A stretch of 14,328 nt of DNA from Thermoplasmata archaeon. GTDB taxonomy: Archaea; Thermoplasmatota; Thermoplasmata; GCA-020350865. The position numbers were made by a program, and so were the translations under genes. Position 1 is the stretch's first letter; the number at the start of each line of letters is the position of its first letter. Below the pieces are notes generated by a model that saw nothing but the letters and a program-made list of their open reading frames with translations, did no database searches and was not told the origin of the DNA. The stretch spans positions 1,921,102-1,935,429 of the forward strand of contig CP070672.1 of the NCBI GenBank assembly GCA_020351895.1, written 5' to 3'. Positions 876 to 14,328 of this stretch are shown piece by piece.

Positions 876-1102
876 GTTTTTTATGTGTGGTCTGTACTCA
901 TTCGCATAATGGTTAACCACCTACTCAGCATTTTAAAGCAACATGCTGGACTTCATTATCATACAGAAGGAAACCTTCCTTTGATACATATGGATGGTGT
1001 TTAAATTCCAGAGAGGATAGGAAACCCAAACAATATTTTTGATATTTAAGAGGATAGATTTAAATCCCAAACCGTGTTTAGAAATTGGAAAGTAGGGATT
1101 TT
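876..1102. other. Intergenic region with T-run and promoter, no gene seen
   Basis: This gap holds only ORFs shorter than 15 codons. A six-T run at 877-882 directly after the oxidoreductase stop is a plausible archaeal terminator. A 5-bp stem GAAGG-AAA-CCTTC lies at 966-978 and is too short to interpret. The promoter of the next gene is at the right end. Confidence 0.5.
1058..1065 (+). promoter_or_regulatory. Putative TATA box of the Asp-box propeller gene
   Basis: ATTTAAAT at 1058-1065 is an AT-rich archaeal TATA-like element. Transcription would start about 25 bases downstream, near 1085-1090. That leaves a short leader before the ATG at 1103 and argues against the in-frame TTG at 1085 as the start. 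No experimental support. Confidence 0.45.
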
Positions 1103-2791
1103 ATGCATTTAAAGATTAAAAAAGAGAAATTATGGTCCATTGCAATAACTCTTCTATTCCTGATGAGTTTCAATATCTCCCTATCCATGGTTGTCCTCAT
1201 TGTTGAGGGGTATCCACCATTTTCGACTAATGTGAAGGTAAATACAGATACCGGAAATCGCCCTCAATCTGGCCCCAAAATCGCGTTGGGCTCCGAAGGC
1301 ACCATTTATGCAGTCTGGCAGGATAGCCGTAACTGGGATGATGACATCTATTTTGCCAGGTCAACTGATGGGGGTGCCAATTGGAGTGACCCGAACATCA
1401 GAGTGAACACTGATCAAGATACAGCCTTACAATTTAATCCCACCCTCGCAATTGATGCTGAGGGTACATTATATGTTGCTTGGGAAGATACCCGTGATGG
1501 GGATAGGAATATTTATTTTGCTAAGTCCAAAGATGGAGGAAACACATGGACAGATCCCAATATAAGAGTCAATAACGATCTCGGTGACTTCAATGAAGAA
1601 GGACCCTCCATTGCCGTGGATTCAGGTGGCACTATTTATCTGGTCTGGGACGATAATCGCAATGGGGATTATGATATATACTTCGCCAAATCCACAGACG
1701 AAGGTGCCACTTGGACAGAACCAAATGTTAGAGTGAATACAGATTTAACCGATACTGGTCAATCAAGACCCACAATCGCTGTGGATGCTACTGGTACCAT
1801 CTATGTAGCCTGGACAGACCGAAGAAACGGGAACTCTGACATCTATCTTGCATATTCAACGGATGGAGGCTCAAACTGGTCTGATCCAAATGTAAAAGTC
1901 AATACTGACACTACCACCTCTGATCAATATAGCCCTAATCTTGTAGTTGACTGCTTCGGTACCATTCACATAAGCTGGGTGGACAAACGAGATGGCGATG
2001 CCGATATTTACTATGCCAAGTCAATCAATAAAGGTGCGGATTGGACATATCCCAATGTTAAAGTCAACACTGATTTTGGGACAGAGGATCAATTTCAGCC
2101 CACAATAGTCGTGAGTTCCTCTGGAACCATCTATGCAGCATGGCAGGACGATGGCAATGATGAGTATGACATCTTATTTGCCTATTCCACAGATGGCGGA
2201 ATGACCTGGAGCGAACCCAATTTAAGAGTAAATGATGACTCCAGTGGCTATGCCCAGAGCGCTCCAAACCTTGCAGTGGACTCTTTAGGTGGAGTCTATA
2301 TAGTATGGGGTGACGCGCGTGATTATTATACAAGTGGCTATGATATATACTTTGCTAACCTGACGGCCGTTGCAACCATCCAGAACAATGCCCCAACAAT
2401 CACAAACAAAGCTTCAGCATCTAAAACGGCAATTGTGAATTTGACAATGACTTTTAACTTCATAGCCTCCGACCCTGATTCAGATCCCCTCTTTTGGAGT
2501 AAGCTCTCTGGACCTGATTGGCTTGTAATAGGTCCAAGTAATGGCACAATTTATGGAAAACCTTCCACAGAAGATTTAGGTTCAAACGATTTTATGATCC
2601 AAGTGAGTGACGGGAAGGGGGGGACGGACAGTTACTCTTTTTCCATAACCGTTCAATCAAGCTCTAACGGGGGTGGTGATAAACAGGATGGTGATTCTAC
2701 CGACTCTGGGGCTTTATGGTTGATTCTTGTCATCGTTATAGTTATTGTGGTTATTGTATTATTGTTCTTCCTCATCCGTAAGAAAAAATAG
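1103..2791 (+). CDS. Secreted, membrane-anchored Asp-box (BNR) beta-propeller protein
   Basis: The 562-residue product is predicted to be an exported surface protein. I chose the ATG at 1103 because it puts a lysine-rich segment (MHLKIKKEK) directly before a hydrophobic stretch (residues about 10-35), a normal signal peptide or membrane anchor; an in-frame TTG at 1085 adds only six residues. Six Asp-box motifs (S-x-D-x-G-x-x-W) sit at residues 87, 142, 197, 252, 307 and 362, each exactly 55 residues apart. A seventh unit ends YDIYFANLTAV without a box, and the N-terminal TNVKVNTD matches the PNxRVNTD strand, suggesting a seven-bladed propeller closed by its N-terminus. Residues about 430-522 resemble an Ig/cadherin-like (He_PIG type) domain. 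A Ser/Gly/Asp linker, a TM helix (about 537-558) and the tail RKKK follow. Sialidases use Asp-boxes, but no sialidase active-site pattern was identified, so a binding or structural role is more likely than catalysis. Confidence 0.85.
   Translation: MHLKIKKEKLWSIAITLLFLMSFNISLSMVVLIVEGYPPFSTNVKVNTDTGNRPQSGPKIALGSEGTIYAVWQDSRNWDDDIYFARSTDGGANWSDPNIRVNTDQDTALQFNPTLAIDAEGTLYVAWEDTRDGDRNIYFAKSKDGGNTWTDPNIRVNNDLGDFNEEGPSIAVDSGGTIYLVWDDNRNGDYDIYFAKSTDEGATWTEPNVRVNTDLTDTGQSRPTIAVDATGTIYVAWTDRRNGNSDIYLAYSTDGGSNWSDPNVKVNTDTTTSDQYSPNLVVDCFGTIHISWVDKRDGDADIYYAKSINKGADWTYPNVKVNTDFGTEDQFQPTIVVSSSGTIYAAWQDDGNDEYDILFAYSTDGGMTWSEPNLRVNDDSSGYAQSAPNLAVDSLGGVYIVWGDARDYYTSGYDIYFANLTAVATIQNNAPTITNKASASKTAIVNLTMTFNFIASDPDSDPLFWSKLSGPDWLVIGPSNGTIYGKPSTEDLGSNDFMIQVSDGKGGTDSYSFSITVQSSSNGGGDKQDGDSTDSGALWLILVIVIVIVVIVLLFFLIRKKK
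1237..2370 (+). repeat. Tandem propeller blades, 165-bp period
   Basis: Seven blade-coding units lie within one gene. Asp-box codons begin at 1361, 1526, 1691, 1856, 2021 and 2186, an invariant 165-bp spacing with no indel. A typical unit reads xPTIAVDxxGTIYVAW, then DxRNGDxDIYFAKSTDGG, then WSDPNVRVNTD. Blade 5 has a degenerate box (SINKGADW) and blade 7 lacks one. Confidence 0.85.
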
Positions 2792-2894: not shown

Positions 2895-3023
2895 TGCGGG
2901 GGGAGGGATTTGAACCCTCGTATGCCTACGCAACAGGGTCCTAAGCCCTGCCCTTCTTGGCCGACAGGTCAAGGCTAGGGGAAATGTCTTTCCCCGCCGT
3001 TTTCCAAGCTCAGGTACCCCCGC
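2895..3023 (-). tRNA. tRNA-Leu (anticodon UAG) with probable D-arm intron
   Basis: Read on the minus strand, GCGGGGG (3023-3017) pairs perfectly with CCCCCGC (2902-2896), and the next base (2895) gives A73, the discriminator leucine tRNAs use. The T-arm is GAGGG-TTCAAAT-CCCTC (2919-2903). The anticodon arm is CAGGG-CTTAGGA-CCCTG (2950-2934), giving anticodon TAG at 2943-2941, which reads CUA/CUN leucine codons. A 14-base variable region (2933-2920) can form the class II arm. CCA is not encoded. The D-stem CCT (3014-3012) pairs with AGG (2954-2952), but 57 bases separate the two strands instead of about 13, so the gene is 129 bp rather than about 85. The anticodon loop itself is uninterrupted. 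Confidence 0.9.
2956..2999 (-). other. Candidate noncanonical intron in tRNA-Leu D-loop (about 44 nt)
   Basis: Removing 2999-2956 joins GAGCTTGGAAAA to AAGGG and restores a normal class II D-arm: G13 A14 G15, G18 G19, A21, A22 and the CCT/AGG stem, with a mature length near 85. The insert folds on its own: GGGGAAA (2995-2989) pairs with TTTCCCC (2984-2978) around a GACA loop. Exon bases CTTGG (3008-3004) pair with CCAAG (2960-2956) next to unpaired A-rich segments, as in a relaxed bulge-helix-bulge splice site. Exact cut sites are uncertain by about 1-3 bases, because the motif is not a textbook 3-4-3 bulge-helix-bulge. Confidence 0.6.
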
Positions 3024-3205: not shown

Positions 3206-3883
3206 ATGTATATCCCTACAAAATGTGAGACCTTAGACAACCTCTTAGGCGGGGGAATAGAATCCGGCTCTTTGACCAGCCTATACGGTGAAGCAGGTTC
3301 TGGAAAGACAAACGTATGCCTCCAACTGGCAAGAAATGTAGTATTGAACGGTAAAAAAGTGGTTTTTATAGATACTGAAGGCGTTTCTTTTACACGCCTT
3401 AAACAAATCTGTGGTGAGGATTTCGACAAGGTTACAAAGGACATTCTGTTCTTTACACCATTTTCCCTGGAGGAGCAGGAAAAGAATGTAGAAGATGCTG
3501 TACACCTTGCCGAGGCTAAAGAAGAAATCGGGCTCATTGTGCTGGACTCGGCAACTGTCCATTACCGAGCAACATTCGGTGAAGAATGCGAAGCAGACGG
3601 AAGAAAATCCTTGGGAAGACAGGTCAACCTCTTACTTCAAGTCTCTCGAAAAAAAGATATTCCTGTTGTAATAACTACTCAGGTGTACACAGATACCAAA
3701 ACCAACACTTTTGAGCCCATAGGAGGTCATGTGCTCATGCATTATGCAAAGGCCATTATAAAGTTGGAAAAGCTCGGTGATGGGGGACTGAGAAGGGCCA
3801 TGATAAAGAAGTACAGGTGGCGCCCGGAGGGAATTTCAGCCGAGTTCAAATTAACTGAAAACGGTGTCGAAGGAGCTAATTGA
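3206..3883 (+). CDS. radB: DNA repair and recombination protein RadB
   Basis: RadB is the short euryarchaeal RecA/RadA paralogue, thought to assist RadA in homologous recombination by binding DNA and partner proteins. The 225-residue length is normal for the family, which lacks the N-terminal helix-hairpin-helix domain of RadA. Seen: N-terminal CETLDNLLGGGIESGS, Walker A GEAGSGKT (residues 28-35), FIDTEG (54-59), Walker B LIVLD (110-114), the sensor-like VVITTQVYTD strand, GGHVLMHYAKAIIKL, and the basic segment KKYRWRPEG near the C-terminus. The ATG at 3206 is supported by the upstream AAAGGTG and TATA box. The gene stands alone on its strand and ends in TGA at 3881-3883, with no base between it and the stop codon of the convergent idsA. 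Confidence 0.95.
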   Translation: MYIPTKCETLDNLLGGGIESGSLTSLYGEAGSGKTNVCLQLARNVVLNGKKVVFIDTEGVSFTRLKQICGEDFDKVTKDILFFTPFSLEEQEKNVEDAVHLAEAKEEIGLIVLDSATVHYRATFGEECEADGRKSLGRQVNLLLQVSRKKDIPVVITTQVYTDTKTNTFEPIGGHVLMHYAKAIIKLEKLGDGGLRRAMIKKYRWRPEGISAEFKLTENGVEGAN

Positions 3884-4867
3884 TTATTTTTTTCGTTCAA
3901 CCATGTAATCCGTGATTTTAATCAGCAAATCTTTGTGCTCAGAATCTGAAAGGACATCCAGCAATTCCTTAGAATTTTTAGCGAAGTCATGGGCCATCTG
4001 TTCCGCATATGCTGTGGAACCAACCTTGTCCATGAGTCCTATTGCGTCTATCACTTCCTGCTGTGTTGCCTTTTGATCCCCTAAAACAGATAGAAATTTA
4101 CTTCTATCCTCCCCTTCCAGTCTCACTAAAGCATGCACAACCATTAAGGTCCTCTTTCCGTTTCTGATATCGCTGCCCACAGGCTTACCCAATAGCTCTT
4201 CGTCTGCCTTTAAATCTAGGTAGTCATCCCAGATTTGAAATCCCATGCCCAGCAACCTTCCGTATTCGGCAAGGGCTGTAATTTGCTCTTTTTTACCCTC
4301 TGCGATCATGGCTCCCCCCATGGCAGCCATTTGAAATAACCTGGCTGTTTTATATTCGATCATCATCAAGTAATCCTTCTCTGAAATATCGATTCTGTTC
4401 TCGAAATCCTTGTCCAACTGCTGACCCTCGCCTATGTTCCTTACCGCCTTCGCTACCTCTCGAACCAGTTCCCTCAATACAGAATCACTAACATCTGTCG
4501 TGGATAAAGTTTCGATAGCCCTTGCGAAAAGCACATCACCAGCATTGATGGCAGTTGCTTCGTCAAAAAGTGTATGAACGGTAGCAACTCCCCTCCTCAG
4601 CGAATCCTTATCCATGACATCGTCATGTAGCAAAGTGAAGTTGTGAATCAGCTCCAATGTCACCCCAAATGGGATTACCTTCTCGCCTTTTTCTGAGATG
4701 GCATCGGCACAAAGCATGGCTAAAACAGGTCTTAGTCTCTTACCACCAGCCATGGGAATATGTTGTATAGCCTTGCGGAGCTTCTCTTGTTCTCCTATAT
4801 CCAACGCATCCTCAAGTGCTTTGTTCACGGTATTAATCCTATCTTCGAGCATGCTTTTTAAATCCAT
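3884..4867 (-). CDS. idsA: Short-chain polyprenyl (geranylgeranyl/farnesyl) diphosphate synthase
   Basis: This enzyme condenses IPP with allylic diphosphates to make the C15-C20 chain used for archaeal membrane lipids. At 327 residues it is full length. Seen: GGKRLRP (41-47), first Asp-rich motif DDVMD (82-86), GEGQQLD (146-152), KT (173-174), second Asp-rich motif DDYLD (214-218) and GKPVGSDIRNGKRT. Phe77 lies five residues before the first Asp-rich motif, the position known to limit chain length in archaeal geranylgeranyl diphosphate synthases, so a C20 (or C15) product is expected; the exact length is inference. It is the last gene of the ipk-fni-idsA operon, 10 bases after fni, with AGGA in the gap as a weak ribosome site. 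It converges on radB with no spacer. Confidence 0.93.
   Translation of the reverse strand: MDLKSMLEDRINTVNKALEDALDIGEQEKLRKAIQHIPMAGGKRLRPVLAMLCADAISEKGEKVIPFGVTLELIHNFTLLHDDVMDKDSLRRGVATVHTLFDEATAINAGDVLFARAIETLSTTDVSDSVLRELVREVAKAVRNIGEGQQLDKDFENRIDISEKDYLMMIEYKTARLFQMAAMGGAMIAEGKKEQITALAEYGRLLGMGFQIWDDYLDLKADEELLGKPVGSDIRNGKRTLMVVHALVRLEGEDRSKFLSVLGDQKATQQEVIDAIGLMDKVGSTAYAEQMAHDFAKNSKELLDVLSDSEHKDLLIKITDYMVERKK
3887..3893 (+). terminator. T7 tract after radB, inside the 3' end of idsA
   Basis: Seven Ts follow four bases after the radB stop and could end the radB transcript. On the other strand the same bases encode the C-terminal lysines of IdsA. A role in termination is inferred from position only. 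Confidence 0.4.
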
Positions 4868-4877
4868 GTTTATTCCT

Positions 4878-5936
4878 CTATCTACCAGTAATCTGTTCCA
4901 TCCATTCTTTTGTCCTTCCAGTGATCACGACTTCCTGTTTCTTCAGCTCTGCTAGGTTCTTTACCCCTGTTAAAAACATGGTAACCTTCAGTTCATGTAT
5001 CACACCTTCAAGCTGCTCCATTACTTTCTCAGAGCTCTCTGTAGCGGATTTAAGTAAGGCTCCAGCCATGCCTGCGGAATTTGCGCCAAGGGCCAATGCA
5101 CGGGCAGCGTCAATACCGTTTCTAATACCTCCTGTGGCGATCAATTCCAGCCCTACATTGGCCTCGACCACGCTCACAGGAGTTGGAATACCCCAGTCCC
5201 AGAATGTCCTGCCAATGCCCTCTTTCAGCTTGTCTTTCTTATTTATGGCGCGGTAGACCTCCACACCTGAAAAACTGGTTCCACCAAGACCGCCAACATC
5301 TATTCCTATTACACCAGCTCCTCTCAAAGCTTGGGCCGTTTTTCTGGATATACCACTGCCGGTTTCTTTGGCTATTATTGGGTACTTTAAAGCCAGGTGC
5401 TTTATCTCGGTCATACAACCCTTTGCATTGACATTTCCCTCGGGCTGTACGACCTCCTGCAGGTAGTTCAGATGTATAGCGAGAACATCTGCATCGATCA
5501 TGTTAAAGGCTTCTTCGATTTTTTCTGTATCAAGACGTTCAGAATCTTCCTGTGAGATGAGCTGTGGTGCTCCAACATTTCCTATGACAAGAGGTATGTC
5601 GAATTCCTTTACTACAGAATAGGTCTCTTTCAGTTTCGTGTTCTCCAAGGCAGCCCTTTGACTCCCAACACCCATACCAATTTTCAGTTTGCTAGCAGCC
5701 TCGGCCAGGTTTCTGTTGATTTGCTCAGCTTTTGGATAACCTCCTGTGATGGCCGATATGATTATGGGCGCAGATAGGTTTTTTTTCAGGATCCTTGCTT
5801 TTGTGTCCAAATCCGAGAAATCAATCTCTGGCAAGGCATGATGTACAAAATGAATGTCATCCCAAAAGTTGTAGTGCGCCTTAACATCCTCATTTAAGCA
5901 AATCTGAACATGATCCTCTTTTCTGTTCTCTATCAT
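4878..5936 (-). CDS. fni: Type 2 isopentenyl-diphosphate delta-isomerase
   Basis: The FMN- and NAD(P)H-dependent isomerase interconverts IPP and DMAPP, supplying the allylic primer that the downstream synthase needs. At 352 residues it is a complete TIM-barrel enzyme. Seen: N-terminal RKEDH (5-9), ISAITGGY (60-67), GMGVGSQRAAL (87-97), GNVGAPQ (119-125), HLNYLQE (155-161) with QPEGN (164-168), the region of the catalytic glutamine and metal site, KETGSGIS, GIDVGGLGGTSF and the phosphate-binding GGIRNG. The start is fixed by a strong GGAGGT on the minus strand at 5948-5943, overlapping the end of ipk by only its neighbouring stop codon. The genes are 12 bases apart, so translation is probably coupled. 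Confidence 0.95.
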   Translation of the reverse strand: MIENRKEDHVQICLNEDVKAHYNFWDDIHFVHHALPEIDFSDLDTKARILKKNLSAPIIISAITGGYPKAEQINRNLAEAASKLKIGMGVGSQRAALENTKLKETYSVVKEFDIPLVIGNVGAPQLISQEDSERLDTEKIEEAFNMIDADVLAIHLNYLQEVVQPEGNVNAKGCMTEIKHLALKYPIIAKETGSGISRKTAQALRGAGVIGIDVGGLGGTSFSGVEVYRAINKKDKLKEGIGRTFWDWGIPTPVSVVEANVGLELIATGGIRNGIDAARALALGANSAGMAGALLKSATESSEKVMEQLEGVIHELKVTMFLTGVKNLAELKKQEVVITGRTKEWMEQITGR

Positions 5937-5942
5937 TCCGAT

Positions 5943-5948
5943 ACCTCC
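5943..5948 (-). promoter_or_regulatory. Strong Shine-Dalgarno of fni
   Basis: Minus-strand GGAGGT directly follows the ipk TGA (5951-5949) and lies six bases before the fni ATG. It decides the fni start and shows that fni is translated from the ipk transcript. It is the best ribosome site in the window. Confidence 0.8.
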
Positions 5949-6728
5949 TCAGTTTTTACTCACAATTCTGGTGCATGTTACTTCCTTATTCAATAGGGTA
6001 TCCTTCAGCCTATTCTCCACATTGCCGTTCAGAATCACGGCCTCGTGACCCAATGCCGCAATTTTAAACATTATCTCCAGCTTGCCGTAAATGCTGCCTG
6101 TAACATCATCCACATTGCTCTCGCTTTTTTTCAAGGAGGTGAAGGTTTTTTCATCTATAACAGGCAAAAGCACTGGATTTTCGCCAGTTGTAGGGTCGGA
6201 CGGGAATATCCCATCCACATCAGCCACGAATATAACCTTTTCTGGCGTAAAAACCCTGGCAAGCTCCAACATAAGCTGATCTCCCGAGCAAATGGAAAAT
6301 TTTAACTTATTGTCGATGACCACATCACCGAATGTTATTGGGGTAAAACCCAGATCAAAATATTTTTTAAATAGTGTCGTATCCATGCTCTTTATTTCAC
6401 CATTTTCATTGACTACAAATGCGCTTGGTGCAAGGGAAACAGCGCTGATTCCCCGCTCCCGAAAAGCGGATAGTACCATGAGATTCAGGTTCTTGACATC
6501 CTTCTGGACCTCTGACAATGCCCGAATCTGCTCCTGATCTTTAAAGCCCATATACAATTTATGCTTCTTGGCAAGGATGTGTCCAAAGGAGCCAGCACCA
6601 TGAACAATCATGGTTCTTTTTCCAGCCTCTTTTACCTCGGAAACAAGACGCATAGTCCTATCATTTTCGAACGTATTTTTGTTTCTTTTATCGGTTATTA
6701 CGCTCCCACCGAATTTGATCAAGAACAT
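5949..6728 (-). CDS. ipk: Isopentenyl phosphate kinase
   Basis: IPK phosphorylates isopentenyl phosphate to IPP with ATP, the last step of the archaeal alternative mevalonate pathways. The 259-residue amino-acid-kinase fold protein shows KFGGS (5-9) for phosphate binding, VHGAGSFGH (42-50) ending in His50, the position of the conserved catalytic histidine that separates IPK from other kinases of the fold, CSGDQL, the ATP-site segment VADVDGIF and the C-terminal VTGSIYGKLE. It is the first gene of the ipk-fni-idsA operon. An AGGTG on the minus strand at 6744-6740 precedes the ATG by 11 bases. The mevalonate-phosphorylating and decarboxylating enzymes that would supply the substrate are not in this window. 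Confidence 0.93.
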   Translation of the reverse strand: MFLIKFGGSVITDKRNKNTFENDRTMRLVSEVKEAGKRTMIVHGAGSFGHILAKKHKLYMGFKDQEQIRALSEVQKDVKNLNLMVLSAFRERGISAVSLAPSAFVVNENGEIKSMDTTLFKKYFDLGFTPITFGDVVIDNKLKFSICSGDQLMLELARVFTPEKVIFVADVDGIFPSDPTTGENPVLLPVIDEKTFTSLKKSESNVDDVTGSIYGKLEIMFKIAALGHEAVILNGNVENRLKDTLLNKEVTCTRIVSKN

Positions 6729-6900: not shown

Positions 6901-9900
6901 CTATTTTCTCTTTCTAGTTTCTAACTTATAGTAGACGAACATTCCCACTGTAAGTGTCACGATTGCGAACATGAATGCCATGAACATGACGAATGGTGAG
7001 AGTTCCGCTCTCCTTGACTGTCCCTCTCGGGTATCTTGTGGTTGAAAATCGCGGGTTTCCTGGTTCACATCTGGTGTTGCTGGCATTTGTTTTCCATCAA
7101 TTTCTTTGCTGGTTTCTTGGTATTCCCTATCTTCATCTTCTGATATTTCCCTGGTTTCCTCATCATGCTCCTGGATTTCTTGATCCGCGCAAGAAGTCTC
7201 GATTTCAGGTTCCATGTCATGAGATGATACATCCTTTGTCTCTTCTTCAATGGTAACCTCATCCTCCAAGGTTTCTTCTTCAACCGAAACCTCTTCCATC
7301 GTAACCTCGGTTTCAATAGATGACTCGGATTCTAAATCTTCACTCTCTGGGGGTAATTCAACCTCTGGTTCTTCATCTTGCACAACAACCTCGTTCTCTG
7401 TCACTTCATCAACAGAAGTTGCTACATCTTCCTCTTCTGGAGTAACTTCGTTCTCCACTTCCTCTTCAACGGAAGGCTCAGTGTTCACGTCTTGATCTTC
7501 AGTAGGTACCTCGGTTTCAGGATTCTCCTCATCCGAGGTCGTTTCATCTCCCACCTCCTCTTCTTCAGGAATGTCTGATGTAGTTTGCTCAAGAACTGTT
7601 GCAATGCTGTTTATTACGGCCTCGTTTCCTGTTCCATCGCTTACGGTTAGGATGATCTCGTACTGTCCAGGTGTATAATATGTGTGCGTGACTTCAATTC
7701 CAGATGCGGTTTCTCCGTCTCCGAAATCCCATTCATAGATGAGGGAAGGTAGATCCCAGAGATATGAGGCATAGGCTGTGAAGGAAATAACCTCAGCCTC
7801 ATTGAAACTGTATTCTAGAGTTGTATCTTGGGTATAGATCATGTAATCCTCCATGGAAAAGGCGGAGAAATGCCCTTTTTTTGCGAATGAGAAGTCGGGT
7901 GCGGGGATTTTGACATCTATGGAATCAGCAAGTCGCTCGATGAAGTTCTCATTTGCGTCAGAATAGTCCAAAGTTACATTATTTGTCAACACACCAACAT
8001 ATTGCACATCAGGATCTACTATCATGTTGGAGTATGTGAATACGACATCGTATTGGACAGAGCCAATGCCTCCGGAAGGCACATCTCCGATATTCCATGT
8101 TATATTATGACCCACGAGAGAATCATACGGTGGGATAGAATCTGTAATTTCAAAGGATGTGTTAATTGGAAGTGTGTCATTTATTATGACATTAGTTGCA
8201 TCTCCAGTGCCTATATTCTCGTAGTTGACAGTATACGGAACGAACACTTCGAACGTGAAGGGCAGGCCGAAGACATATGGACGCAAGTCACTTACAAGCC
8301 AAGTCCAGGTATCATTCTGTCTTACATTAAAGGTATGATGTATCCTTGACTGGGAGCCATCCTCTGTTCTGAGGATGAGCCAGCAGGGTGTTGCTCCCCA
8401 AACCTGCCCGTTGACTGGATCATCCCATGGTGTGTATTTAACAACGGCGGTGTGGGTGTTACTGAGAATGTCGATTTTTACCCCCTCAATTGTCACAGCC
8501 TGTTCATCTGGATTACCTGGTATTCGGTAGATATATGCATAGGCAGCAATCTCACCATTTTCATATACTGTGAGATTCACATCATGCCATTTCTCACCTG
8601 CGATTCTAAGGGTGAGGTTCACTGGGACATAGGCAGCTTGAACCTGACCCAGACCAGCATCCTTGGACATTATCATCACTGGGGCTGTTACAACAGATTC
8701 CGCAGAATCGTACAGCTGCTCTATGAGGTTGCCGTTGGCATCGCTGTAATCTAATGTGACCTCATTAAGAAGTGGTGTCTGATCTGGTGTACCTACATCC
8801 ACCTTCACATTTACTGTTATGCTTCCTCCAGCTCCTGACTTGACCTCTAAGATATTCCAGGTAACAATTTGTCCGATTACTGAACTTTCTGCAGGTAAGG
8901 CGGATACAAATGAGACAACCAATGGTAGCATATCCACTATAATTATGTTGCTGGCGTCGCCTGTACCTGTGTTTTCATATTCTATTGTATAGACAATAGG
9001 ATCACCTGGATCAGCCTCAGGGACATCAACGGTCTTCAACAACGACATAATTGGTGCAGTGACTACTGAATCTGCAAAATCGTCCAATTGGTCGTAGTAG
9101 TTACCGTTGGCATCTGCATAATCCAGTGTTACAACATTGTGTAGCGGTGTCTTATCAGGTGTTCCTACATCGACTGTAACCGTAATTGTTATTGATCCAC
9201 TTCCACCTGGTTTGAGATCGCCAATAATCCATGTGAAATCATCTCCGCTTGATGAGTTGTATCCAGGTATCGAACTTGAATAGGAAGTATCCGGTGGTAT
9301 GGTGTCAACTATCTCCACAAGGGAGGCCAAACCGGTTCCAGTGTTTTCGTAGTTGATTGTGTAAACTATGGGATCACCGGGATCGGCTTTTGATACATCG
9401 ACTGTCTTTGTTATCGACAGAATTGGGGCGGTTACCACTAAATCGGCATAATCGCCCAATTGATCGTAGTAATTACCGTTGGCATCTGCATAATCCAGGG
9501 TGGCGGTGTTGTTCAGCGGGGTCTCGTCAGGTGTTCGCTCATCGACCTTAACCCTTAGGATGACGGTTTTTGTTGCACCTGGGCCAACATCTCCAAGGTC
9601 GAACTCGTAAACATCTCCCACATTTGAAGAGTACCCTGGAGTTGAACTAACATATGTGGTGTCTGCTGGTATGGTATCTGTAACAAGAACACCACTGGCC
9701 CACCCGGTTCCTGTGTTCTTACAGTCGATTGTGAATACGATAATATCCCCTGGATCGGCAGTTGGTTGATTGACTGTCTTGGTAATGGACATGATGGGTG
9801 CAGTCACTATAACCTCTGCATCATCGCCCAACGGTGTGTAGTAATTCTCATTTGCATCGGCCCAATCTAAAGTGACCTCGTTATACAATAATGTCTCGTC

Positions 9901-12900
9901 AGGTGTTCCCACATCAACTCTGACCCTCAATATTATTGTACCGGTTCCATTTGGACTGGGTGCAAGATGGCCAATATCCCAATAGAAATCATCACCGAAC
10001 GAAGAACTCGGCGGAGGTGTTGAGTTTACAAAGGTTGTTTCTGGTGGTATCGTGTCAGTGATCTTAACAAGGGATGCCCAACCTGTTCCTAAGTTCTCAT
10101 AAGTGATTGTGTACTCGATCAAATCCCCTGGGTCTGCGTCAGGTACATTGGCAGTCTTAGTGATTGAAAGAATAGGAGCAGTAACCGTGCAATCTGCATA
10201 ATCGCTTAATTGATCGTAGTAGTTGTCATTTGCGTCGGCATAATCCAGTGTTGCAGTGTTATGCAGTGGTGTCTTATCAGGTGTTCCTATGTCCACCCTA
10301 ACAACTATTACTATCTGACCACTGCCGTTTGGACCAACATCACCCAGATTCCATATATAGGTTTGGCCACTTGATGAATTAAAGTCAGGAATTGGGGAGC
10401 CTTCTAGGGTGGTGTAATCGGGAATCGTATCTTCCACGATAACGCCTCTTGCCACTCCAGTCCCGCTGTTGATATAGGATATCTTATAAGTGATTAGATC
10501 ATCTGGATCTGCAGTGGAAACATCCACAGATTTGGACATTGTAAGAATGGGTGCTGTGACGATAACATCTGCGAAATCTTCCAATTTTGTGTAATAGTTG
10601 CCGTTTGAATCCGCATAATCTAAGGTTGCCTCGTTTCTGAGATGGGTCTCATCATCTGTTCCCACTATGACGCCTACCCAGATTTTTACTTCTCCGGTAA
10701 AGCCGGGAGCGACATCTCCGATGTAGAATAGGTAGAACCTACCAATATTAGTGATATATCCTGGATCGGAACTTTCGAATTTCACATGATCAGGTATGGT
10801 GTCATTCACAAAGACACCAGTTGCCAATCCTGTACCTGTGTTTTCATACTCTATTGTATACAATATCGTATCGCCTGGATCAGCTGTGGGAACATCGGCG
10901 GTCTTGGTCATGGACATAACAGGAGCAGTGACGATCGTATTCGCATAATCACTCAATTGATCGTAATAGTTACCATTTGCATCTGCATAATCCAGGGTTA
11001 CTTCATTCTTCAATATCGATTCATCAGATGTTCCAACATCCACTGTCACGGTGATGGTTATTGTCCCGCTTCCACCCGGTATAAGATCACCTATGATCCA
11101 GGTGTAGTCATCTCCACTGGAAGAATTAGGTGCCGGTATCGAGCTTTCGAAAGTAGTGTCAGGCGGTATGGAGTCCATGATCTCCACAAGTGTCGCCCAA
11201 CCAGTTCCTGAGTTCTCATACTCTAGGGTATAAACAATAGGATCACCAGGATCGGCCTCGGCGACATCTACCGTCTTAATTATGGATAGAATCGGGGCAG
11301 TTACCAATACATCGGCATAATCACATAATCGCTCGATGTAATTACCGTTTGCATCTGAATAATCGAGTGTGACTCTGTTGTGAAGTTTTGTCTCATCGGG
11401 TGTTCCGACATCCACTGTCACCGTGATCCTTATGGTCCCTCTTCCACCTGGTTTAAGATTACCTATGGTCCAAGTATAATCATCTCCACTGGAGGAGTTA
11501 GGTGCTGGTACCGAGCTTACAAAGGTGGTGTCGGGTGGTATGGTATCCACGATCTCGACAAGTGAGGCCCAACCCGTTCCTAAGTTCCTGTAACGGATCG
11601 TGAACACAATCGTATCGCCTGGATCAGCATAATCTACGTTGGCCTGCTTACAAACCCTCATCACAGGTGCCGTGACCCAGACATCGGCATAATCCTCCAA
11701 TTGTGAGTAATAGTTACTGTTGTTGTCTGCATAATCGAGGGTGGCTCTGTTTCGCAATAGTGTTTCATCAGGGGTCCCAACATCTACTCTTACTGTGATA
11801 GTTATTGTGCCTGTTCCGTTTGGTTCAAGATCCCATATCATCCATGTATAGTCATCTCCACTTGAAGAATTAGGTGCTGGAATCGAGCTCACAAAGGTGG
11901 TGTCGGGTGGTATTGTATCAACGATCTTAACAAGTGTTGCCCAACCTGTTCCTGAGGTATTATATAATAGCTCGTATACAATGATATCTTCGGGATCATG
12001 ATTATCATGACATGCTGTTTTGCTCAGGGTCATAACAGGGGCGGTAACCCAGACATCAGCATAATCCTTCAATTGCGTGTAGTAGTTACCGTTTGCGTCT
12101 GCATAATCAAGGGTTGCTTCATTGTGTAATAGTGTTTCATCAGGTGTCCCAACATCCACACATACTGTTATTGTACTTATTCCGGTTCCGTTTGGTTCAA
12201 GATTCCATATCAACCATATATGCTCATCTCCACTTGAGGATGTGGGTGCTGGAATCGAGCTCTCAAATGTAGTGTCGGGTGGTATTGTATCTACTATCTT
12301 CACAAGTGATGCCCACCCTGTTCCCGAGTTCTCATATTCGATGGTATATTCTATCATATCTTCTGGATCGGCATCTGTCACATCTGCGGCCTTGGTTATG
12401 GATAAAATCGGAGCAGTTACCATGACGTCTGCATAATCCTCCAATTGCGTGTAGTAGTTACCGTTAGCATCTGCATAATCAAGGGTTGCTTCATTGTGCA
12501 GTTTTGTCTCGTCAGGTATTCCCACATCCACCTTGACTGTGATTGTTATTGTACCACTTCCTGATGGCTCAAGATCACCTATTATCCATGTATACACATC
12601 CCCACTGGAAGAATTGGGTGCTGGTATAGAGCTTATAAATTTAGTGTCAGGAGGTATTGTATCAACGATCTCCACAAGAGAAGCCCAACCTGTTCCTGTG
12701 TTCTCATATTCGATGGTGTAAACGATGGGATCGTCTGGATCGGCTTGGCTGACATCGGCTGTCTTGGTGAGAGATAACACAGGGGCTGTTACAGGTAAAC
12801 AAGCAAGGGCGTCTAATGGATCAAAAGGATTGCCATTGTCATCCGAAAACTCCAATCTAACATGGTTACGGAGACTTCTTCTGTCTGGTGTTCCAACATT

Positions 12901-14328
12901 CACCCTTACTGTAATTGTTATGGTTATTGTCTCGTTGTCTTCTACGAGTGCATAGAACCAAGAATAGAGACTGGTAGTGTTGAAATCAGGTGTTGGTGAT
13001 GAGCTGACAAAAGTGGTATCGCCGGGAATGGTATCGTTTATCCACACGTTTGTTGCGTTTCCTGAACCAGAATTTACGAATTCAATGGTGTAAGTTATCT
13101 CATCATCGGGATCGGCGCTTGAAACATTGGCGGTCTTTGTAACATTCATAACAGGAGCAGTAACCGTAACATCCGCATAATCGGTTTCTTGATCATATGG
13201 ATTCCCATTTGCATCATCGTAGTCGAGTGTTGCCTCGTTGTGAAGGGGTGTTCCATCCGGGGTGCCCACATCGACGGTGACTGTTATGATGATGACACCA
13301 CCGGAATTGGCACCAACTGTCCCAATAATCCATGTATACGTATCCACGCTAACATTATCATAACCAGGATTGGAGCCATCATATGTTGTGTCTGCAGGTA
13401 TGGTGTCAGTGATAACCACATCGGTTGCAACACCACTTCCGGTATTGTTATATGTTATCGTAAACACAATGGGATCGCCGGGATCAGCGGTATTTACATC
13501 CGCAACCTTACTTATTTTCATCACAGGAGCTGTGCATGTTACATCCGCTGTGTCATTTTCTTGGGGATACGGATTTCCATTTACATCATCATAATCTAGG
13601 GTTACCTCGTTGGTCATGACGATTCCATCACCAGTGTAGGCATCAACCTCCACGACTATTGTTATTGTCCCACTTGTTTTTCCAGGAACGAATGAAATAT
13701 TCCATGTGTATGTATCTCCGCTCTCCATATTGAAACCTGGAGTCGCGTTCACTAAAGTCGTTTCTGCGGGAATTGTATCGATTATTACGATGCCAGTTGC
13801 CTCACCAGATCCGGAATTCTCGAAGTCAATGGTATAGGTTATATAATCACCTGGATTGGCTGTACTTTTATCCGCTGATTTCTGAATGCTCATTACTGGA
13901 GCCGTGATAGTCACATAGTTTTCATCGAAGAGTTGATCGTAGAAATTGCCATTATCATCTGCATAATCCAATGTGGCAGTATTATGAAGAAGTGAACCAT
14001 CATCTATACCTGCTTTTACCATCACATATATTCGGATGGTTCCACCGGAATTGGATTCCACCAACCCGGTATTCCACGTGTATGTATTACCGCTTACGCT
14101 ATCCTCTTTTGGTTCCGAATAAAGGAAGGTCACATTCTCAGGCAATGTATCTTTCACCACAACGAGTGTTGCATTTCCAGATCCAGTGTTTTGATATGAC
14201 AAACCGTACATGATGGTGTCCCCTGGATTTGCCTTTTTATGGCAAACACATTTGCTGAATATCATCACAGGAGCGGTAACTTTTACTTCAGCCTTATCAT
14301 TCAGTTGTGGATAATAGTTATTATTTGC
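6901..14328 (-). CDS. Giant DUF11-repeat surface protein with PKD domain and C-terminal anchor (5' truncated)
   Basis: One uninterrupted frame of 2475 codons plus stop runs off the right edge. The 20 codons before the GTG at 14268 already encode the tail of another repeat, ending in VTAP, so that GTG is internal and the N-terminus is missing. Order of parts: tail of one DUF11 unit (14328-14269), 15 complete units (14268-8680), a sixteenth split by an unfamiliar domain (8679 to about 7895), a PKD domain with YEWDFGDGE (about 7800-7593), a Glu/Thr/Ser-rich stalk of about 190 residues (about 7590-7020), a TM helix (about 6993-6928) and the basic tail KLETRKRK. N-glycosylation sequons are frequent, for example NSSS in many units. 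The architecture indicates a long fibre or surface-layer-like protein with its ectodomain outside the cell, perhaps adhesive; no enzymatic motif was seen. No frameshift was seen in 7.4 kb. Confidence 0.9.
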   Translation of the reverse strand, partial: ANNNYYPQLNDKAEVKVTAPVMIFSKCVCHKKANPGDTIMYGLSYQNTGSGNATLVVVKDTLPENVTFLYSEPKEDSVSGNTYTWNTGLVESNSGGTIRIYVMVKAGIDDGSLLHNTATLDYADDNGNFYDQLFDENYVTITAPVMSIQKSADKSTANPGDYITYTIDFENSGSGEATGIVIIDTIPAETTLVNATPGFNMESGDTYTWNISFVPGKTSGTITIVVEVDAYTGDGIVMTNEVTLDYDDVNGNPYPQENDTADVTCTAPVMKISKVADVNTADPGDPIVFTITYNNTGSGVATDVVITDTIPADTTYDGSNPGYDNVSVDTYTWIIGTVGANSGGVIIITVTVDVGTPDGTPLHNEATLDYDDANGNPYDQETDYADVTVTAPVMNVTKTANVSSADPDDEITYTIEFVNSGSGNATNVWINDTIPGDTTFVSSSPTPDFNTTSLYSWFYALVEDNETITITITVRVNVGTPDRRSLRNHVRLEFSDDNGNPFDPLDALACLPVTAPVLSLTKTADVSQADPDDPIVYTIEYENTGTGWASLVEIVDTIPPDTKFISSIPAPNSSSGDVYTWIIGDLEPSGSGTITITVKVDVGIPDETKLHNEATLDYADANGNYYTQLEDYADVMVTAPILSITKAADVTDADPEDMIEYTIEYENSGTGWASLVKIVDTIPPDTTFESSIPAPTSSSGDEHIWLIWNLEPNGTGISTITVCVDVGTPDETLLHNEATLDYADANGNYYTQLKDYADVWVTAPVMTLSKTACHDNHDPEDIIVYELLYNTSGTGWATLVKIVDTIPPDTTFVSSIPAPNSSSGDDYTWMIWDLEPNGTGTITITVRVDVGTPDETLLRNRATLDYADNNSNYYSQLEDYADVWVTAPVMRVCKQANVDYADPGDTIVFTIRYRNLGTGWASLVEIVDTIPPDTTFVSSVPAPNSSSGDDYTWTIGNLKPGGRGTIRITVTVDVGTPDETKLHNRVTLDYSDANGNYIERLCDYADVLVTAPILSIIKTVDVAEADPGDPIVYTLEYENSGTGWATLVEIMDSIPPDTTFESSIPAPNSSSGDDYTWIIGDLIPGGSGTITITVTVDVGTSDESILKNEVTLDYADANGNYYDQLSDYANTIVTAPVMSMTKTADVPTADPGDTILYTIEYENTGTGLATGVFVNDTIPDHVKFESSDPGYITNIGRFYLFYIGDVAPGFTGEVKIWVGVIVGTDDETHLRNEATLDYADSNGNYYTKLEDFADVIVTAPILTMSKSVDVSTADPDDLITYKISYINSGTGVARGVIVEDTIPDYTTLEGSPIPDFNSSSGQTYIWNLGDVGPNGSGQIVIVVRVDIGTPDKTPLHNTATLDYADANDNYYDQLSDYADCTVTAPILSITKTANVPDADPGDLIEYTITYENLGTGWASLVKITDTIPPETTFVNSTPPPSSSFGDDFYWDIGHLAPSPNGTGTIILRVRVDVGTPDETLLYNEVTLDWADANENYYTPLGDDAEVIVTAPIMSITKTVNQPTADPGDIIVFTIDCKNTGTGWASGVLVTDTIPADTTYVSSTPGYSSNVGDVYEFDLGDVGPGATKTVILRVKVDERTPDETPLNNTATLDYADANGNYYDQLGDYADLVVTAPILSITKTVDVSKADPGDPIVYTINYENTGTGLASLVEIVDTIPPDTSYSSSIPGYNSSSGDDFTWIIGDLKPGGSGSITITVTVDVGTPDKTPLHNVVTLDYADANGNYYDQLDDFADSVVTAPIMSLLKTVDVPEADPGDPIVYTIEYENTGTGDASNIIIVDMLPLVVSFVSALPAESSVIGQIVTWNILEVKSGAGGSITVNVKVDVGTPDQTPLLNEVTLDYSDANGNLIEQLYDSAESVVTAPVMIMSKDAGLGQVQAAYVPVNLTLRIAGEKWHDVNLTVYENGEIAAYAYIYRIPGNPDEQAVTIEGVKIDILSNTHTAVVKYTPWDDPVNGQVWGATPCWLILRTEDGSQSRIHHTFNVRQNDTWTWLVSDLRPYVFGLPFTFEVFVPYTVNYENIGTGDATNVIINDTLPINTSFEITDSIPPYDSLVGHNITWNIGDVPSGGIGSVQYDVVFTYSNMIVDPDVQYVGVLTNNVTLDYSDANENFIERLADSIDVKIPAPDFSFAKKGHFSAFSMEDYMIYTQDTTLEYSFNEAEVISFTAYASYLWDLPSLIYEWDFGDGETASGIEVTHTYYTPGQYEIILTVSDGTGNEAVINSIATVLEQTTSDIPEEEEVGDETTSDEENPETEVPTEDQDVNTEPSVEEEVENEVTPEEEDVATSVDEVTENEVVVQDEEPEVELPPESEDLESESSIETEVTMEEVSVEEETLEDEVTIEEETKDVSSHDMEPEIETSCADQEIQEHDEETREISEDEDREYQETSKEIDGKQMPATPDVNQETRDFQPQDTREGQSRRAELSPFVMFMAFMFAIVTLTVGMFVYYKLETRKRK
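6904..7590 (-). other. Acidic stalk, transmembrane anchor and basic tail
   Basis: About 190 residues dominated by Glu, Asp, Thr, Ser and Val (for example TTSDIPEEEEVGDE) form a low-complexity, highly negative linker. A Gln/Arg-rich stretch, a hydrophobic helix (SPFVMFMAFMFAIVTLTVGMF) and KLETRKRK at the C-terminus follow. Positive residues after the helix fit an extracellular stalk with a cytoplasmic tail. The negative charge would hold the PKD and DUF11 fibre away from the membrane; that role is inferred. Confidence 0.85.
7593..7830 (-). other. PKD domain of the giant surface protein
   Basis: The segment reads from VISFTAYAS through YEWDFGDGETASG, THTYYTPGQYEIILTVSDG and ends at IATVLEQ. 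The WDFGDG and YxxPGxYxxxLTVxD motifs are diagnostic of PKD Ig-like domains, common on archaeal surface proteins. It is the membrane-proximal folded domain. Confidence 0.9.
8236..8640 (-). other. Unrecognised domain nested in the last DUF11 unit
   Basis: Unit 16 starts normally (MIMSKDAG) and resumes with YTVNYENIGTGDATN at about 8238, but between these lie about 135 residues with no DUF11 pattern. This stretch starts near AYVPVNLTLRIAGEKWHDVNLT and includes YRIPGNPDEQAV, YTPWDDPVNGQVWGATPCW and HHTFNVRQNDTWTW. It is rich in Trp, His and alternating hydrophobic residues, which suggests a beta-sandwich. The function is unknown; a carbohydrate- or metal-binding role is possible but unsupported. 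Confidence 0.65.
8680..14268 (-). repeat. Array of 15 complete DUF11-type repeats, 372-bp period
   Basis: Taking the last valine or isoleucine of each VTAPV/VTAPI as the unit start, units begin at 14268, 13896, 13524, 13152, 12780, 12408, 12036, 11664, 11292, 10920, 10548, 10173, 9795, 9423 and 9051; the split sixteenth begins at 8679. Thirteen of the 15 intervals are exactly 372 bp (124 residues); the other two are 375 and 378. The consensus runs through KTADVxxADPGDPIVYTI, then YENTGTGWASLV, DTIPPDTTF, SSSGDDYTWIIGDL, TITVTVDVGTPDET and LDYADANGNYYDQL. This is the DUF11 (PF01345/TIGR01451-type) Ig-like fold, assigned from the motif pattern. Confidence 0.9.

Follow-up and report, generated by a model that had tools for sequence, protein, structure and literature searches.

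A candidate D-loop intron in an archaeal tRNA-Leu(UAG) gene, and tRNA introns outside position 37/38 in the Thermoplasmata

How does a tRNA gene with every other arm intact come to have its two D-stem strands 57 bases apart, and is the intervening DNA removed from the transcript? The gene in question, a tRNA-Leu(UAG), lies on the minus strand (3023-2895) of a 14,328-nt stretch of a Thermoplasmata genome (contig CP070672.1), hereafter the window. Its acceptor stem (GCGGGGG/CCCCCGC) forms 7/7 pairs, the anticodon arm (CAGGG-CTTAGGA-CCCTG) and the T-arm (GAGGG-TTCAAAT-CCCTC) are intact, and a class II variable arm and A73 are present. Between the D-stem strands CCT (3014-3012) and AGG (2954-2952) are 57 bases. 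The original prediction, drawn from this DNA, had named these intact parts and the 57-base separation, together with a 7-bp hairpin in the insert and an exon CTTGG complementary to CCAAG at its 3' end, and each can be read at the positions below. Our preferred reading, with a probability of about 0.88, is that the insert is an archaeal tRNA intron and that its position is non-canonical: it follows G18-G19 in the D-loop and precedes the D-stem 3' strand, outside position 37/38, and the anticodon loop CTTAGGA is uninterrupted. The features, with the support that two related genomes (G001 and G016) lend them, are as follows.

2895..3023, minus strand: tRNA-Leu(UAG) gene including the intron, 129 nt (sequence, and comparison with G001 and G016)
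3000..3023, minus strand: exon 1, 24 nt, comprising the acceptor 5' strand, U8-A9, the D-stem 5' strand CCT (3014-3012) and the D-loop as far as GGAAAA (identical in G001 and G016)
2955..2999, minus strand: putative D-loop intron, 45 nt (excision gives the G016 gene; a diverged 31-nt insert occupies the equivalent place in G001)
2895..2954, minus strand: exon 2, 60 nt, comprising the D-stem 3' strand AGG, anticodon arm, variable arm, T-arm, acceptor 3' strand and A73 (identical in G001 and G016)
2934..2950, minus strand: anticodon arm of exon 2 (sequence)
2920..2933, minus strand: variable arm of exon 2 (sequence)
2903..2919, minus strand: T-arm of exon 2 (sequence)
2896..2902, minus strand: acceptor 3' strand of exon 2 (sequence)
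3004..3008, minus strand: predicted exon-intron helix, exon side CTTGG (sequence; fold)
2956..2960, minus strand: predicted exon-intron helix, intron side CCAAG (sequence; fold)
2978..2995, minus strand: predicted intron hairpin GGGGAAA-GACA-TTTCCCC, to which the fold adds GGC/GCC (2998-2996 with 2975-2973)

Comparison with two related genomes

Genome G001 (CP070751.1) was reached through the 352-aa protein encoded at 4878-5936, about 2 kb from the tRNA gene, which we take to be IDI2 and whose G001 copy is 79% identical; G016, one of three genomes compared from the order of G001, has a copy of 77% identity. Gene order across window positions 3206-6728 is the same in G001, the genes presumably being RadB-like followed by apparent polyprenyl synthase, isopentenyl-diphosphate isomerase type 2 and isopentenyl phosphate kinase genes. 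Elsewhere in the window, a 2455-aa open frame (6901-14268, minus strand) whose product would have TADPGDxIxYTIxYxNxGTG-type repeats, an acidic tail and, at its C-terminus, a membrane segment suggests a giant DUF11-like surface protein, and a 568-aa protein (1085-2791, plus strand) has by eye sialidase-like (BNR) repeats and a C-terminal membrane segment.

In the syntenic place, G001 has a tRNA-Leu(UAG) gene of 115 nt, the same as the window's at 84/84 exon bases, with a 31-nt insert that differs from the 45-nt insert of the window in both length and sequence. The G016 gene is uninterrupted, and the window gene minus 45 nt is an 84-nt sequence identical to it at 84/84 positions, whereas excision of 44, 43 or 47 nt leaves a product that differs. 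Because the 45-nt excision reproduces the G016 gene exactly, we place the cut at 2999-2955 or, equivalently, at 3000-2956, which gives the same product; the intron ends are uncertain by a few nucleotides. It had been proposed that removing about 44 nt (2999-2956) would give an almost perfect class II D-arm. Removal of the insert stands, but the size does not: 44 nt leaves 85 nt and a sequence unlike the G016 gene, while 45 nt leaves 84 nt and exactly that gene. Insert-free relatives with different exon bases had been named as grounds for doubt; the exon bases of the insert-free G016 are identical. A 43-nt excision (3003-2961) that leaves CTTGG joined to CCAAG was rejected: its 86-nt product is not the G016 gene, and the bases concerned differ between the window and G001.

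Exons that stay identical while the insert between them changes fast are what one would expect of a spliced intron, and two other accounts of the locus fit this pattern poorly. The gene could be dead, broken by a chance insertion, with another copy serving instead, and a second tRNA-Leu(UAG) elsewhere in the window's own genome is possible; we consider this quite improbable, since two other genomes match the exons at 84/84 bases, the insert having diverged, and since no other tRNA-Leu(UAG) was found among the candidates scored in G001. The original prediction had raised such a second intact copy as a reason to call the gene a pseudogene, and in the 5.16-Mb contig of G001 none is present among 63 RF00005 matches (150 of 309 candidates scored), of which this gene alone has a UAG anticodon loop. 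ARAGORN called 53 tRNAs in these matches, none of them UAG, and a pattern for the 3' half of tRNA-Leu(UAG), run over the whole genome, matched once in G001 and once in G016. Alternatively, the insert could be retained, so that the mature tRNA carries a giant self-folding D-loop, and its hairpin is stable. We give this very little credence: the insert varies in length (45 versus 31 nt), one relative lacks it with identical exons, and a D-arm of 3 pairs with a 57-base loop would lie far outside the intronless tRNA-Leu(UAG) genes read in relatives.

The start of the G016 gene is 5 bases from a 100-N gap, across which lies a uvrA-like gene, and downstream the tRNA is followed by a transposase-like ORF (both by eye). 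The neighborhood of this gene therefore says nothing about synteny, and the intronless copy may belong to a mobile or variant segment. No tRNA remnant was found in G016 within 4 kb behind IDI2, where the GGPPS-like gene is also interrupted by a 100-N gap. Other tRNA loci in G001 are also unusual. A 3-kb region (L113, C1:4640571-4643566, minus strand) contains 18 tRNA matches, many divergent and some with inserts, and resembles a tRNA array carried by a virus or another mobile element; a tRNA-Leu(UAA) (L100) and a tRNA-Gln(UUG) (L096) look, by eye, bacterial rather than archaeal.

Gene prediction, fold and excision site

Without its intron mode, ARAGORN reported no tRNA in the window, and an Rfam scan at E values up to 1 likewise missed the gene; the sole Rfam result in the window, a match to mir-1261 (E = 0.94), was put down to chance. 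Intron-aware prediction, suggested earlier as a check, went astray: the ARAGORN intron mode offered a 46-nt anticodon-loop intron, which we rejected, as it breaks a perfect anticodon stem and conflicts with both relatives. Exon-joined forms with 43, 44 or 45 nt removed were each called tRNA-Leu(tag), so ARAGORN cannot decide the cut. Annotation that lacks the right intron model loses such genes, as ARAGORN and the Rfam scan did here, or misreads them, as the intron mode did in misplacing the intron.

When the D-arm region is folded in silico, a 5-bp helix joins CUUGG of the exon to CCAAG at the intron 3' end, and GGC/GCC pairs lengthen the intron hairpin. Next to this helix come 5 unpaired bases and then the hairpin, an arrangement more relaxed than the strict bulge-helix-bulge, in which a 4-bp helix is flanked by a 3-nt bulge on either side. 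The G001 fold has a 10-bp intron hairpin and a junction helix, CUU/AAG, of just 3 bp. With the cut placed so as to yield the G016 gene, 3/4 pairs of the canonical helix are present in the window and 3/4 in G001, in different registers, and we therefore class the motif of both as relaxed; a departure from the strict motif had been anticipated, and at this cut it holds. When the intron letters were shuffled, both kinds of feature, the hairpin and the exon complement, arose in 312 of 20,000 trials, so pairing by itself is modest evidence and it is the comparison of relatives that carries the case.

That the gene is transcribed and its transcript cut and rejoined, and at exactly which bases, is our inference. 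In the transcript, the end of exon 1 (CUUGG) would pair with the intron 3' end (CCAAG), the intron hairpin lying beyond and the intron as a whole just after G18-G19 in the D-loop. The tRNA splicing endonuclease would cut on both sides of the CUUGG/CCAAG helix, after which the RNA ligase customary in archaea, presumably RtcB, would join the exons. The predicted product is an 84-nt class II tRNA with the D-loop GAGCUUGGAAAA.

Where exactly the intron is cut admits an alternative that we hold to be possible but doubtful. Removal of 47 nt (3001-2955) would follow canonical geometry, placing the TTGG/CCAA helix exactly as in canonical motifs; read from the sequence, the window reaches 4/4 in this register for this cut alone, which would leave an 82-nt tRNA with a short D-loop and the junction GGAAAGGG. 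Canonical geometry gives 4/4 pairs for 20 of the 30 introns tested (see below). Removal of 44 nt would instead leave an 85-nt form, with the junction GGAAAAAAGGG, that retains the 13-nt D-loop of genomes G002 and G026. Neither product, however, is the G016 gene; the D-loop of the 82-nt form is two bases shorter than that of G016, and in the TTGG/CCAA register G001 pairs at just 3/4 positions (read from sequence). The 45-nt intron, with its junction GGAAAAAGGG (five A) and 84-nt product, appears more likely than these other cuts, because the gene of a relative equals exactly that product.

Introns outside position 37/38 in the class

D-arm introns had been described at the outset as, to the best of knowledge, unusual in Thermoplasmatota-like genomes. 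This needs correcting: introns outside 37/38 are not rare in the class, though little described in the searchable literature. The tRNA-Leu(UAG) pattern had 60 matches in 300 genomes of the class, and of 50 loci read, 7 have a D-arm insert (in G001, G057, G245, G233, G269, G101 and G165; G057, G233 and G245 are records JAJZYH01, DAHVCH01 and DAHUZP01), 42 have none and 1 is unclear; the relatives G002, G026, G097 and G053 have an intronless gene. The unclear locus (L164, in G068) shows the 3' half of tRNA-Leu(UAG) but no recognizable 5' half immediately before it, whether through another intron, a split gene or decay.

Other tRNAs are interrupted as well. In G001, the D-loop intron of tRNA-Thr(GGU) (L128) folds with a 5-bp helix between two 3-nt bulges, and tRNA-Val(UAC) (L134) has a 22-nt D-loop intron together with one at 37/38, of which G016 (L263) has only the latter. 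A T-loop intron in tRNA-Gly(CCC) is present in G001 (L132) and G002 (L303) and absent from G016 (L260). Besides this, in G002, which belongs to the order of G001, the D-loops of tRNA-Val(CAC), -Ser(GCU) and -Ser(GGA) are interrupted, as are the T-loops of tRNA-Arg(UCU) and -Ala(UGC). Ten poor or odd RF00005 matches were examined in each of G057 (39 matches) and G245 (45 matches); these gave 7 T-loop introns in G057 and 6 in G245, all 30-35 nt long. Most tRNA genes read in relatives have no intron outside 37/38. Relatives that differ in one intron, as G001 and G016 do for tRNA-Leu(UAG), -Val(UAC) and -Gly(CCC), make gain and loss directly comparable.

Whether the helices of these introns exceed chance was judged from 30 cases, 13 in D-loops and 17 in T-loops. 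The D-loop cuts were chosen manually to give a product like the genes of intronless relatives or paralogs, the pairing register of L226 and L237 was set by eye, and the six tRNA-Leu(UAG) introns outside the window and G001 resemble one another, so that 6 of the 13 D-loop cases are not independent. The canonical helix averages 3.77 of 4 pairs in the D-loop set, compared with 2.60 when introns are swapped (0 of 2,000 swaps reach the observed value) and at most 2.46 when the partner is slid by 1-3 bases. For the T-loop set the mean is 3.59, compared with 3.41 on swapping (reached by 15 of 2,000) and at most 2.71 on sliding; exon 1 is nearly constant there, so the swap is a weak control and sliding the informative one. 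All four pairs form in 10/13 D-loop and 10/17 T-loop introns (20/30 overall), and the remainder, the window's included, have 3/4. ARAGORN reads a tRNA in 30/30 joined and 5/30 unjoined sequences.

Across the class, a T-loop intron pattern occurs in 52 of 300 genomes (2 for the backward control). This is an upper figure, because some of the 12 loci checked fail: 8 have 12/12 stem pairs, 3 are not tRNAs and 1 is a fragment with a T-stem and 4/7 acceptor pairs. After automatic exon joining at these 12 loci, ARAGORN recognized 3. T-loop introns are cut after TTCRAA and measure 29-50 nt in those checked (e.g., L224, L235, L300, L301, L311-L313, L318 and L319). One T-loop family, GGTTCGAATGACTA...TAGTCTCGGAAATCCC, is nearly unchanged in 12 genomes, where it is known from the pattern match alone.

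Several further inserts were excluded from the counts, as their cuts were ambiguous or not worked out. The initiator tRNA-Met of G001 (L131, 125 nt) and G016 (L244, 123 nt) has an insert of about 50 nt, apparently in the D-arm, whose cut is ambiguous because an ATCCCGA-like stretch (ACCCCGA in one G016 copy) flanks it on both sides. In G057 and G245, a tRNA with a CGG anticodon (L228 and L238) has a D-arm insert further 5', and tRNA-Lys(UUU) (L232 and L243) has apparently both D-loop and T-loop inserts. About 200 bases downstream of the intact, intronless tRNA-Gly(CCC) of G016 lies a 3' tRNA-Gly fragment that keeps the T-loop intron (L308, C1:1062276-1062336, minus strand), as if an integrating element had brought the intronless half; PMC3293823 describes a Caldiarchaeum model with which this arrangement may be compared.

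Splicing endonuclease and known systems

Which enzyme would remove such introns? All 14 relatives surveyed (14/14) encode two PF01974 repeats in a single frame, i.e., a fused two-repeat, alpha'2-like endonuclease. The catalytic Tyr/His/Lys of the C-terminal repeat and the dimer state of these enzymes are assigned here by assumption. The motifs KYG.HFR and GV[KR]K are conserved in 12/12 aligned endonucleases (those of G048 and G002 were outside the alignment). None of these 12 has an insertion where the specificity loop (ASL) of the ARMAN enzyme lies, a place located by alignment with that enzyme, the crenarchaeal loop not being part of that alignment; the loop-less enzyme occurs regardless of whether D- or T-loop introns were found in the genome. 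The solved structure closest in sequence to the G001 endonuclease, encoded on the minus strand at 1459-2547 of locus L081, is 5x89, which PMC6379350 gives as the Methanopyrus enzyme, with 4fz2 (ARMAN-2), 1r0v/2gjw (Archaeoglobus fulgidus) and 2ohc (Thermoplasma acidophilum) scoring lower.

Enzymes of this kind are not generally credited with such work. Euryarchaea with alpha4 or alpha2 enzymes are said to have one intron only, at the canonical position (PMC4090602), these enzymes are said to cut only canonical motifs or to be narrow (PMC4033280 and PMC6379350), and alpha'2 is classed as narrow, efficient removal of relaxed introns being ascribed only to (alpha-beta)2 and epsilon2 enzymes (PMC6379350). 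It is also reported that A. fulgidus removes a relaxed 37/38 intron from full-length pre-tRNA (PMC6379350), and that homodimeric enzymes are able to cut a bulge-helix-loop motif (PMC8707768). Since 20/30 introns meet the canonical helix, an alpha'2 enzyme may just be cutting canonical motifs irrespective of their position; the tRNA-Leu(UAG) introns of the window and G001 are the clearest cases demanding more than that. On balance, we favor the view that Thermoplasmata widely splice D- and T-loop introns with a fused alpha'2 endonuclease that lacks the loops credited with broad specificity, and that one or more of these introns, as in the tRNA-Leu(UAG) genes of G001 and the window, have a relaxed motif. 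If so, the rule that pairs alpha'2 with 37/38 introns only would reflect history and sampling, not enzyme ability. The class-wide pattern makes the stated rule linking enzyme type to intron position testable.

Archaeal tRNA introns are a known kind of feature; the place of the window's is unusual, and the searchable literature does not record it for this lineage: among the matches listed from open-access PMC literature, by titles and the starts of abstracts, we recognized no report of D- or T-loop tRNA introns in Thermoplasmata. One non-canonical intron model was trained on Crenarchaeota and Euryarchaeota, and 673 non-canonical introns were counted in 217 archaeal genomes (PMC8450103); the supplementary tables of that study may include relatives.

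Known systems both resemble this one and differ from it. Thermoproteales and other Crenarchaeota, Thaumarchaeota, Nanoarchaeota and Korarchaeota likewise have short introns outside 37/38, with bulge-helix-bulge or relaxed motifs (PMC3218864 and PMC4090602), but these lineages, Korarchaeota excepted, use two-subunit enzymes (PMC4090602), unlike the single fused two-repeat enzyme of the window's relatives. Euryarchaeal non-canonical introns are recorded in three thermophilic methanogens of other lineages (PMC3218864), and multiple introns are listed for Methanopyrus kandleri and Methanothermobacter (PMC4033280); the M. kandleri enzyme, in contrast, is an (alpha-beta)2 type (PMC4033280 and PMC6379350). 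Among Asgard archaea, Atabeyarchaeia and Freyarchaeia, too, often have introns at non-canonical positions, yet 92-95% of their tRNA genes have an intron (PMC11291895), whereas most tRNA genes read in the window's relatives, which belong to a different phylum, have none outside 37/38. The ARMAN (Micrarchaeum) epsilon2 system similarly combines a single fused endonuclease with relaxed introns (PMC6379350 and PMC12397907), but there the fused enzyme is a three-unit protein with a specificity loop, the ASL, whereas the enzymes of the window's relatives consist of two full repeats with no insertion at that place.
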